Below are positions 40,301 to 44,294 of a stretch of 48,196 nt of DNA, piece after piece. The position numbers and the translations under genes were made by a program. How positions within the stretch are numbered: position 1 is the stretch's first letter; every line of letters starts with the position of its first letter. Under the pieces are notes generated by a model, which saw nothing but the letters and a program-made list of their open reading frames with translations, was not told where the DNA came from and ran no database searches. The DNA is taken from assembly GCA_024688885.1 (NCBI GenBank), contig JAILDV010000027.1, positions 1-48,196 on the forward strand, in the 5' to 3' direction. Source of the stretch: Bacteroidaceae bacterium. GTDB taxonomy: Bacteria; Bacteroidota; Bacteroidia; Bacteroidales; Bacteroidaceae.

Positions 40301-40897
40301 TCTGGCGAGGACATCAACATCTTCGTTATCGACACTGAGGTTTACTCTAACACAGGTGGTCAGTCTTCAAAGGCTACTCCAATCGGTGCTATCGCTCAGT
40401 TCGCAGCAGGTGGTAAGCGCATCACCAAGAAAGACCTCGGTCTCATGCAGTCAACTTATGGCTACGTTTACGTGGCTCAGGTGGCAATGGGTGCCGACAA
40501 CGCACAGTGCCTCAAGGCACTTCGTGAGGCAGAGGCATATCCTGGTCCATCACTCGTCATCGCTTATGCTCCATGTATCAACCACGGCTTGAAGGCTAAG
40601 GGCGGCATGGGTAAGTCTCAGGCAGAAGAGGCTAAGGCAGTTGAGTGCGGTTACTGGCACCTCTGGCGTTTCGACCCACGTCTCGCTGAGGAAGGCAAGA
40701 ACCCATTCCAGCTCGACTCCAAGGCTCCAAACTGGGATAACTTCCAGGCATTCCTCGACGGTGAGGTTCGTTACCTCTCTCTCAAGAAGGTATGTCCCAA
40801 CGAGGCTCAGGAGCTCTTCGACGCAGCCAAGAAGGCAGCACAGCACCGCTATGCTACCTATGTGCGCATGAGCAAGATTGACTACTCTGCAGAGTAA
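37343..40897 (+). CDS. nifJ: Pyruvate:ferredoxin (flavodoxin) oxidoreductase, single chain
   Basis: 1184 residues, the normal length of the fused homodimeric enzyme. N-terminal domain I begins [35 protein letters not shown]. Two 4Fe-4S motifs are present: [13 protein letters not shown] and [16 protein letters not shown]. The TPP region [15 protein letters not shown] contains the cofactor GDG motif, and CSGCGE precedes it. It oxidises pyruvate to acetyl-CoA and CO2 while reducing ferredoxin. Codon use is strongly biased to a small set (GGT, CGT, CTC, AAG), unlike the neighbours, which points to very high expression. The C-terminus is …MSKIDYSAE. Confidence 0.97.
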   Translation: [1184 protein letters not shown]

Positions 40898-40923
40898 TAA
40901 ACCTACATAACATCAATCCAAAA

Positions 40924-40958
40924 GGATGCCGTTCCATCATGGTTCGGCATCCATTTTT
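40924..40958 (+). terminator. Intrinsic terminator of nifJ
   Basis: GGATGCCG and CGGCATCC (40924-40931 / 40945-40952) form the stem, followed by TTTTT. The same structure recurs at 42887-42920. Confidence 0.85.
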
Positions 40959-40966
40959 AAACCTCG

Positions 40967-41344
40967 ATGCCTATACAGAGAAAGATTTTGGTCTCATTGA
41001 TTGGAATCATTGTGCTGATACCCTTAGGACTCTATTCCAGACATCTCAAGTGGATTCCCGAAGAAACAGGTGATGCACTCTGGGCGATGATGGTCTTTTG
41101 TCTCTGGCGTATCATCTTGGTTAAGCAATCTCTGCGACTGGTGGCAATCATCAGCCTGACGCACTCCTTCCTCGTGGAGTTTTCGCAAATTCTTCGCTGG
41201 TCATGGTTAGTGTCCTTCCGCAGCACATTCATCGGCCACATGATGCTCGGGCAGGGTTTCCTGTGGACAGACCTCCTTGCCTACTTGATTGGCATTCTCC
41301 TCATCTTCTGCTTGTTCCAAAGCATGGAACGAAATTCAGTATAG
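40967..41344 (+). CDS. DUF2809-like small membrane protein
   Basis: 125 residues, about four hydrophobic helices (KILVSLIGIIVLIPLGLY; ALWAMMVFCLWRIIL; LVAIISLTHSFLVEFSQIL; WTDLLAYLIGILLIFCLF). Charged residues in loops (SRHLKWIPEETGDAL, RSTFIGHMMLGQG) fit the DUF2809 family. Function unknown. It begins only 8 bp after the T run of the nifJ terminator. Confidence 0.7.
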   Translation: MPIQRKILVSLIGIIVLIPLGLYSRHLKWIPEETGDALWAMMVFCLWRIILVKQSLRLVAIISLTHSFLVEFSQILRWSWLVSFRSTFIGHMMLGQGFLWTDLLAYLIGILLIFCLFQSMERNSV

Positions 41345-41365
41345 AACAGCATATATGAAAACAAT

Positions 41366-41393
41366 AAGAGCCTGTGCGATTGCACGGGCTCTT
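41366..41393. repeat. Hairpin repeat, copy A
   Basis: AAGAGCCTGTGC-GATT-GCACGGGCTCTT forms a 12-bp stem with one G·U pair and a 4-base loop. A near-identical hairpin with an inverted loop is at 42571-42596. The copies bracket the DUF2442/DUF4160 module. Confidence 0.75.
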
Positions 41394-41455
41394 GTGATGT
41401 ATAATGATTGTGAAAATGAAATCAACAATCAATATTCTCCGTCTTCTTATTGCAG

Positions 41456-42920: not shown

Positions 42921-42924
42921 ATTC

Positions 42925-42987
42925 AAGAAAATGCACTAAAAAAATGCAATTATTGGATAAAACTGCATTTTTTTAGTGCATTTTCTT
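42925..42987. promoter_or_regulatory. Perfect 24-bp inverted repeat before the second ATPase gene
   Basis: AAGAAAATGCACTAAAAAAA… (42925-42948) is repeated exactly in reverse complement at 42964-42987, with a 15-base spacer. The right arm includes the TTG −33 box of the ATPase promoter. A cruciform or a repressor site are both possible. Confidence 0.9.
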
Positions 42988-43016
42988 GCACATCCACATC
43001 CTTTTCTCTACCTTTG
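42986..43016 (+). promoter_or_regulatory. Promoter of the second ATPase gene
   Basis: TTG (42986-42988), 20 bp, TACCTTTG (43009-43016), then 24 bp to ATG 43041. It overlaps the 24-bp inverted repeat on the upstream side. The overlap of a −7 box with an in-frame TTG at 43014 shows that TTG is not the start. Confidence 0.65.
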
Positions 43017-43040
43017 CCGCAGAATCAGACTTGTCTCATC

Positions 43041-44210
43041 ATGGAAGAATTGCTCGGATATTACAACCTGCTGGTAAATAGAACCAAGACAGATTTTCAT
43101 CGCTACCTGTACACTGAAATAGATTGGCAAGACCATCTTGTGGGTCTGACTGGTCCTCGCGGCGTGGGAAAGACAACCCTCGTCCTCCAACATATCAAAG
43201 AGAACCTCAACCGTAACACCACTCTGTATGTCACGGCTGAAGACCTGTATTTCTCCAATCACACCTTGCTGTCGTTGGCAAAGGATATGTCAGACAAAGG
43301 CTTCACCCATTTCTTCATTGATGAAATCCACAAATATCCAGATTGGTCGAGAGAACTCAAACTCATCAACGACTATCACCCCAACCTGCATGTGGTGTTC
43401 ACAGGGTCATCCATCCTTGACATACAAAAGGGAGCAAGCGACCTTAGCCGACGCGCTGTCATGTACTCCATGCAAGGGCTATCCTTCCGTGAATATCTGA
43501 TGCTGTTTCACAACATCAATGTTCCCGTCTATTCCATTGAAGACATCATTGCACAGCGAGTGGATGCCAATGCCATAGAACATCCGTTACAATTATTCCG
43601 CCAGTATCTGCAAACGGGCTACTACCCCTTCAGCCGCGAACGGAATTTCAATCGCCGCCTTCGCGAAGTCATCAATCAGACATTGGAAGTTGACATTCCC
43701 GTTTTTGCACGAATGAATGCCTCTACAGGACATAAACTGAAACGTCTGCTCTGCATTATCAGTGAAAGTGCTCCTTTCAAACCCAACTTCACGAAAATTG
43801 CCACCTTGCTGGATGTCAGCCGCAACGTCATTGCCGATTATATCCTGATGATGGAAGAAGCCGGTATGGCGATGCAACTGCACAACTCCACCACAGGCTT
43901 GCGAAACCTCGGAAAAGTTGAGAAGGTCTATCTTGACAACACAAACCTCATCTACAATCTGAGTCCTGAAAACGCAGACCTTGGCAATGTGCGTGAAACC
44001 TTTTTCCTCAACCAAACACGCCTCCAAAACGAAGTCACGTTTTCTGGCATTGCAGATTTTCAAATAGGAGATTTCACCTTTGAGGTTGGCGGTCGCCACA
44101 AAGGGCAACAGCAAATCGAACAAGCCAACCGAGGTTTCATCGTAAAAGACGATATAGAGTTCCCCATGCTCAACATCATTCCCCTTTGGCACTTTGGATT
44201 AAACTATTAA
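43041..44210 (+). CDS. AAA-type ATPase (DUF4143-like), canonical Walker B
   Basis: 389 residues from ATG 43041. Walker A GPRGVGKTT (about residues 39-47), Walker B FFIDEIHKYPDW, sensor FTGSS, then an HTH-like segment TKIATLLDVSRNVIADYI and a C-terminal domain ending FEVGGRHKGQQQIEQ… HFGLNY. It resembles the 36066 ATPase through most of its length, so the two are paralogues. It stands alone between two copies of the nifJ tail. Family function is uncertain; some members are linked to mobile or defence-associated genes. Confidence 0.75.
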   Translation: MEELLGYYNLLVNRTKTDFHRYLYTEIDWQDHLVGLTGPRGVGKTTLVLQHIKENLNRNTTLYVTAEDLYFSNHTLLSLAKDMSDKGFTHFFIDEIHKYPDWSRELKLINDYHPNLHVVFTGSSILDIQKGASDLSRRAVMYSMQGLSFREYLMLFHNINVPVYSIEDIIAQRVDANAIEHPLQLFRQYLQTGYYPFSRERNFNRRLREVINQTLEVDIPVFARMNASTGHKLKRLLCIISESAPFKPNFTKIATLLDVSRNVIADYILMMEEAGMAMQLHNSTTGLRNLGKVEKVYLDNTNLIYNLSPENADLGNVRETFFLNQTRLQNEVTFSGIADFQIGDFTFEVGGRHKGQQQIEQANRGFIVKDDIEFPMLNIIPLWHFGLNY

Positions 44211-44239
44211 GGTTTGTCCTAAAGACATGCCAATCTGTT

Positions 44240-44294
44240 CGCATGAGCAAGATTGCCTGACGGCGAGCTGAAGGTTGACTACTCAGCAGAGTAA
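44240..44294 (+). repeat. 55-bp fragment of the nifJ tail (third copy)
   Basis: Differs from 42806-42860 at only two of 55 positions, including the extra GCCTGACGGCGAGCTGAAGG segment. nifJ itself lacks that segment. The two copies bracket the second ATPase gene as direct repeats. Confidence 0.88.

Follow-up and report, generated by a model that had tools for sequence, protein, structure and literature searches.

We have analyzed a stretch of 48,196 nucleotides from a Bacteroidaceae bacterium (contig JAILDV010000027.1 of assembly GCA_024688885.1; hereafter the window, its genome being G000). In this window the pyruvate:ferredoxin oxidoreductase gene nifJ (1184 amino acids; open reading frame at 37343..40897, + strand) is followed by short accessory cassettes and further copies of its own 3' end. 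The nifJ 3' end appears to act as a portable homology anchor by which such cassettes, largely of defence type, are swapped between species, a reading to which we give a probability of roughly 0.7. Three parts of this reading are supported by the sequences compared here: exchange within nifJ ends, displacement of the old end, and re-use of displaced ends.

The portion of the present nifJ tail that recurs downstream, together with the terminator, lies at 40722..40957 (T0, + strand). A first displaced copy (T1, 42591..42920, +) begins at position -175 relative to the stop codon, has its own terminator and carries insertions of 69 bp (42622-42690) and 22 nt (42821-42842). The second (T2, 44236..44294, +) begins at -36, carries the 22-nt insertion (44255-44276) and ends at the stop codon; without the insertion it consists of only 37 nt of nifJ. 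T1 and T2 are 95% identical over 59 nt and bracket ATP2 (43041..44210, +), an AAA_14 ATPase gene that is the cargo of the second cassette and is 99% identical in genome G017. An earlier note on this DNA had placed all three tails and the bracketed ATPase correctly.

The comparison set comprised 45 genomes of the same genus (g1), 37 of which gave a match to the nifJ tail; counts of fragments refer to these 37 and to G190, a genome that is assigned to another genus and yet has a nifJ 93% identical to that of the window. The region downstream of nifJ was scanned in 39 loci from these genomes, 340,100 bases in all, with 234-15,134 bases per locus; since the loci include very short ones, absence of a fragment there means little. 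A reversed-sequence query, run as a test of chance hits, gave 0 matches in the 39 loci. The set probably represents uncultured gut Bacteroidaceae of the Candidatus Minthosoma group, and the window would belong there too; the identified g1 records are labelled Bacteroidaceae, Prevotellaceae or Bacteroidales, and two are Candidatus Minthosoma, a genus placed in the Bacteroidaceae.

In-line, same-strand nifJ 3' fragments were found downstream of nifJ in 8 of the 37 g1 genomes, with one to five extra fragments per genome. Including G190 there are 20 (window 2, G003 2, G006 2, G011 1, G017 3, G025 3, G035 1, G068 5, G190 1), and cargo is thus bracketed by long direct repeats of the target sequence whose length varies from 36 to ~1232 nt. 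The copies are therefore not a peculiarity of one assembly, and the genes that they flank vary between genomes. The same junctions recur in separately assembled genomes, and we reject mis-assembly as their general cause. The stop codon is included in all 20 fragments, while about 12 different 5' ends are found (~ -36, -47, -59, -63, -74, -168, -175, -184, -350, -677, -692 and -1232 nt); one G068 fragment has an additional piece from farther upstream (-602 to -557). Past the stop codon the copies differ in sequence and include several terminator-like types. The joins have little in common with the nifJ sequence that precedes the breakpoint, ~7 bp in the case of the DUF2442 join. G010 has a 24-nt nifJ remnant, and a 36-nt opposite-strand match in G016 (E 0.002) was counted as chance. 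As a control, the ends of gapA, pckA, groL, thiC, thiH and ATP1 (the ATPase gene upstream of nifJ) were searched in the 45 genomes and no second copy was seen among the matches listed. This control is weak, with at most 8 candidates scored per genome; five genomes had a seventh match, and only some of these were among the matches listed.

Many integrases insert at tRNA and other gene ends. A recombinase acting in cis or in trans might insert elements that bear a replacement nifJ end, and both the intact end kept by nifJ and the stop codon held by every displaced copy would agree with site-specific integration of this kind. However, one enzyme should yield one core, and the 5' ends range from -36 to ~ -1232 with no constant core position among them, on which ground we reject a fixed attachment core. 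No recombinase family was recognised among the cargo proteins scanned between fragments, several of which had no family assignment, and in G035 (see below) the switch lies 0.8-1.0 kb within the gene. Site-specific integration is thus improbable. The earlier note had proposed the tail as an attachment or homology site; the many 5' ends leave the homology site standing and speak against a fixed attachment site, and its remark that the interval holds no integrase agrees with the proteins scanned.

Indications of exchange come from comparisons between species. Cassettes are 98-100% identical between species whose nifJ genes are ~90-96% identical. Across 41297-41998 the window shows 99.1-99.3% identity to G025, G006 and G068, and 98-100% per 200 bp to G003 and G013; over the stretch from ATP1 to nifJ the same pairs show 95.6% (G025), 89.8% (G068), 77-98% per 200 bp (G003) and 68-98% per 200 bp (G013), and G006 is comparable only over the last 309 bp, at 97.7%. 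Identity between the window and G003 climbs to 98-100% per 200 bp from ~40600, within the nifJ end. The ATP2 cassette is 97.6% identical to that of G017 overall and 99-100% in most 200-bp steps, whereas the available 276 bp of nifJ tail are 90% identical.

The neighbours of these sequences change at the fragments. The left flank of the DUF2442 gene is 98-99% identical in five genomes. What it continues into is ATP2 in G000, one further sequence common to G003 and G068, and different ones again in G006 and in G025, where only short terminator-like stretches are shared. Likewise, the left flank of ATP2 is 99.25% identical between G000 and G017 and continues differently in each, and the left neighbours of ATP2 differ too. 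On the other side of the tails, the sequence after tail d8051 of G025 is found directly after nifJ in G068 (99.25%, 400 nt) and G006 (97.5%, 394 nt), that after d14309 of G025 follows nifJ in G190 (97.9%, 284 nt), that after the last tail of G068 follows nifJ in G034 (91.4%, 408 nt), and that after d13210 of G035 follows d2755 of G017 (94.7%, 394 nt). In these alignments the sequences switch partners exactly at nifJ fragments; since cassettes change neighbours within them, the fragments are points of exchange. The single-copy junction that the earlier note wished to see in strains without the ATPase thus has counterparts, although these were found between species and not between strains. The left side of the locus is conserved in 26 of 26 loci, and the right flank of the window lies in G003 on a contig other than that of nifJ; therefore only the left side is clearly conserved.

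These comparisons also bear on the possibility, raised in the earlier note, of a simple series of duplications, in which the nifJ end is duplicated in tandem within each genome and the copies then diverge and receive independent insertions. Every fragment is direct and downstream of nifJ, as tandem duplication would have it. Yet the fragments are as far from their own nifJ (identity ~81-100%, mostly 90-97%) as from the nifJ of other species, cassettes are common to several species, and the post-stop sequence differs among copies. We consider this origin very unlikely.

In G035, nifJ is separated from a displaced nifJ copy of 1.2 kb by a DpnII system and a NACHT gene. The G035 nifJ is 87.7% identical to that of G068 over its first 2,300 bp and 97.3% over its last 600 bp, the largest rise among 300 genome pairs (mean 0.7, sd 2.3); the mean rise from body to end is +4.9 for G035 and +2.8 for the next genome. 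The two G035 copies differ at 122 of 1,232 sites, with only a 167-bp tract identical, which is not what a true duplication of the recipient's own sequence would look like. Of the 35 differing sites between -1229 and -984, the G068 base is that of the displaced copy at 31 and that of nifJ at 1; among the 87 from -816 onward the relation is turned round, with 67 shared with nifJ and 14 with the displaced copy (Fisher p = 7.8e-16). Six further references, mutually non-independent, agree on the switch (p from 6.9e-08 to 0.0009). The 167-bp tract lies between the two regions and shows no difference between the copies, even though it contains 72 sites that vary in the genus; a run of this kind was seen in 0 of 20,000 random placements. 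The tract is 91.6% identical to G068, G011, G024 and G002, and ~84-89% to most other close relatives. On this evidence the two copies are read as reciprocal mosaics. One crossover of a circle, or two of a linear donor already holding an array, would give such a pattern. A nifJ with a relative-like end followed by cargo, and a reciprocal displaced copy to its right, is expected if a nifJ fragment with its cargo recombines homologously with the recipient nifJ.

Arrays could also arise by one-sided events only. One end of an incoming linear molecule would pair with nifJ while its second end is attached by an illegitimate join, through homology-facilitated illegitimate recombination or through insertion with target duplication, and arrays would grow by repeated insertion without later exchange between tails. 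The many fragment 5' ends and the little sequence in common at joins fit this, and PMC5361080 presents a model of this kind for Vibrio arrays. Nevertheless, junctions between a given cargo and fragment are found repeatedly, at high identity, while the sequence past the fragment varies, and the G035 copies have swapped ends reciprocally, so exchange within fragments also occurs. One-sided events by themselves are an unlikely explanation; they are probably a source of new boundaries and not the whole story.

Under the homology-anchor reading, DNA bearing a nifJ tail and cargo would recombine homologously with the recipient nifJ, replacing its end and displacing the old one. The exchange would be of the RecA type. 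The incoming DNA may often be a non-replicating circle excised between two tails and integrated by one crossover; a linear donor with two crossovers is possible. Rare illegitimate joins would create the new fragment boundaries, and some vehicle would carry the DNA between species. The nifJ gene would be suited to this role, being conserved across species and followed by DNA that could change past the terminator without harm. A circular intermediate is plausible. The fuller proposal, a recombinase-free system in which defence cassettes circulate among gut species as circles that carry the end of a nifJ-type gene, each integrating through one homologous crossover, their arrays growing and reshuffling much as in integrons, is tentative and on balance we doubt it.

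Several observations weigh against the homology-anchor reading. The G035 contig could be an assembler's join, made through the identical tract, between the native locus and a tail-bearing molecule or between two strains, and the tract, which may stem from donor or recipient, may exceed the read length. Inspection by eye of the copies in G068, G011 and G006 revealed no reciprocal switch, so that G035 alone shows one. No such fragment was found in 29 of the 37 g1 genomes, some of them on short contigs, and some fragments have only 37-60 nt, which is short for homologous recombination. The identified comparison genomes are all metagenome-assembled or uncultured. Part of the cargo was scanned, several proteins having no family, and an unrecognised recombinase in the arrays is possible; HNH and GIY-YIG nucleases are present in a few loci. 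Finally, no vector for the cassettes was found in plasmid, phage or viral collections. Of 31 plasmid records that matched, the best 20 were Bacteroidales nifJ genes and IS4-type ends; the phage search gave a single match, the phage-labelled unannotated scaffold MT836274.1, with a 75-bp stretch 79% similar to the 69-bp insertion; and in the viral contigs neither an ATP2 relative (of 3 pattern matches, none was confirmed) nor the nifJ-tail pattern was found.

Cargo was annotated by Pfam and PADLOC, part of the reading frames being scanned. G035 carries a D12 methylase, a DpnII endonuclease, a second methylase and a NACHT protein (Pfam, PADLOC); G025 carries an AAA_21 and a DUF4276-like protein that match HEC-01A/B, and a PIN-domain protein with a small partner. 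Fic proteins are cargo in G017 and G190, DUF3990 with DUF3791 in G068, HNH in G003, and DUF4160-DUF2442 in several genomes. Where no displaced copy is present, nifJ is directly followed by DUF3990 (G024), GIY-YIG and a DDE transposase (G034), an IS605 OrfB/TnpB-like gene (G019) or Fic (G007). A GH26 glycosidase gene lies beyond the -74 tail in G003 and G068, and cargo is therefore not only of the defence type. A protein starting MFRAIQYIGN or similar recurs in G068 (L051:9648-10982), G003, G007, G017 and G025; it has no clear match in Pfam, PADLOC or PDB, and in three genomes the stretch between it and the -74 nifJ fragment is ~98% identical.

A homing-like process, with an HNH or GIY-YIG nuclease of the cassette making a cut close to the end of nifJ and the cassette being copied in during repair, would draw on the HNH_3/homing-endonuclease match in G003 and on GIY-YIG in G034 (below the cut-off in G025). 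No such nuclease was recognised in the cassettes of the window, G006 or G017, and we hold this process to be extremely unlikely.

The earlier note had ATPase cassettes moving at the nifJ tail. Variable genes do appear to move and recombine there, but by Pfam and PADLOC the cargo is not mainly ATPases. Its related first cassette, ATP1 (36066..37247, +), also an AAA_14 ATPase, lies outside the cassettes: it is a conserved neighbour in all 26 loci with a full-length nifJ (25 genus genomes and G190; split into two frames in G002), and was rejected as a cassette on that account. ATP2 matches PADLOC PDC-S01 with E 4e-26 and the conserved ATP1 does nearly as well (E 8e-25), and the ATP2 match therefore says nothing about a role in defence. 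Among the 45 genomes, G000 and G017 are the only two with an ATP2 cassette of high identity, and in each it has nifJ tails on both sides. G023 has a 73% relative on a contig other than that of nifJ, and ten genomes including G023 have weaker or short matches.

Two small insertions mark the displaced tails. The 69-bp insertion occurs at the same position in displaced tails of G003, G006, G025 and G068; in these genomes and G000 its ends read ATTGAC...GTCAATT. The 22-nt insertion, GCCTGACGGCGAGCTGAAGGTT, is present in T1 and T2 and lacking in nifJ, as the earlier note had seen, but it was inserted later, and we reject the idea that it preserves an older nifJ sequence: its first 20 nt recur with one mismatch at unrelated sites in G024, G064 and G005, and the G017 tails that flank the same ATPase are without it. 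Gene conversion between T1 and T2 is the likeliest account of its presence in both, because each copy retains its own adjoining bases. Short intergenic repeat units like GCCTGACGGCGAGCTGAAGG occur at unrelated sites in the genus (L050:8070-8140 in G024; L030:1500-1525 in G005).

The first cassette of the window begins with a DUF2809 gene (40967..41344, +; family match and comparison), which also adjoins nifJ in G003 and G013. It is followed by the DUF4160-DUF2442 cassette, of which the DUF2442 gene (41456..41917, -) is 99-100% identical at the amino acid level in G003, G006, G013, G025 and G068. The DUF4160 gene is broken by an insertion resembling a miniature inverted-repeat transposable element (41999..42288, no strand assigned), with ends that match IS4-family records and 9-bp direct repeats at 41990-41998 and 42289-42297; in G003 the site is uninterrupted. 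A DUF4160 remnant remains as a 73-amino-acid frame (42249..42470, -; family match and comparison), the gene being intact with 79 amino acids in G003, G006 and G068. A longer element (~1.3 kb) on G190:C83 has ends similar to those of this insertion. A terminator-like hairpin (AAGAGCCTGTGC..GCACAGGCTC) flanks the DUF4160-DUF2442 genes on each side (41365-41391 and 42566-42596), and two sets of direct repeats with a spacing of mostly 23 bp lie immediately right of the array (44621-44735 and 44768-44962).

A family-wide scan gave a nifJ tail match in 359 of 399 genomes. The 17 genomes outside g1 with more than one tail match were re-searched, together with G203; in-line ends on a single contig were found in G190 and G257, and contig-edge fragments in G147, G419 and G150. 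G257 (genus g45; ~78% complete, 450 contigs) has two nifJ-type 3' ends ~4.4 kb apart on one 5.4-kb contig (L123, G257:C370), the first at the contig start. They are 58% and 61% identical to the window protein and 91% to each other over 444 nt. The interval encodes a 535-amino-acid protein together with an AAA_21 ATPase that matches HEC-01A (E 2.7e-128) and a DUF4276 protein that matches HEC-01B (E 1.1e-71); a SMEK-domain protein begins after the second end. As judged from this contig, G257 has the same layout on a different nifJ-type gene, and its occurrence in a second genus suggests repeated use of such gene ends. The lone 3' end of a second nifJ-like gene also occurs mid-contig in G190:C83 (L127:5987-6161), 80% identical to contigs of G067 and G065.

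The phenomenon is a variation on known themes, namely insertion with long target duplication, core-gene hotspots and Vibrio immunity arrays; none of the titles and abstract openings listed in searches of a partial literature collection dealt with nifJ ends in such a role. Restriction-modification systems insert with long, variable target duplications according to PMC3031569, which cites Nobusato et al. (2000) for this, and the nifJ arrays resemble them in having defence genes within long direct target repeats of variable length and no recognised transposase, the DpnII-type system of G035 lying between nifJ ends. They differ in the re-use of one gene end, the multi-cassette arrays, the varied cargo across species and the reciprocal mosaic of G035. 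As in the core-gene hotspots described in 2017 (PMC5635113), variable genes adjoin a conserved core gene, no recombinase is recognised and recombination occurs within the core gene, the signs of which are here the shift between body and end of the G035 nifJ and the step in identity between the window and G003 near the nifJ end. In contrast to that account, the core-gene end is here copied with the cargo and recurs in the array, and homology in the far flank, which is not conserved, is not needed.

Integron cassette arrays line up exchangeable cassettes, with a related repeat closing each one. The nifJ arrays do so too, but their repeats are 3' ends of the protein-coding nifJ gene and vary in length; the protein scans, which included no search aimed at an integron integrase, brought none to notice. 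Kirchberger et al. (2017, PMC5361080) liken Type VI effector-immunity arrays of Vibrio cholerae to integron cassette arrays and propose homology-facilitated illegitimate recombination for their stepwise growth, which displaces a gene's 3' end. As there, stepwise insertion at a conserved anchor would push older modules and the gene's 3' end backward, with homology proposed on one side; there, however, the anchor is the effector locus itself, whereas here it is a metabolic housekeeping gene whose displaced ends are re-used for exchange.

These arrays show how defence genes could pass from one species to another with no mobile element dedicated to the task: the end of a conserved gene, if copied together with the cargo, suffices for further rounds of exchange. 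They offer a testable route for hotspots that lack an integrase, and displaced 3' ends of core genes provide a simple way to find more of them. If the cassettes do travel as circles, the end of a housekeeping gene would play the part of an attachment site.

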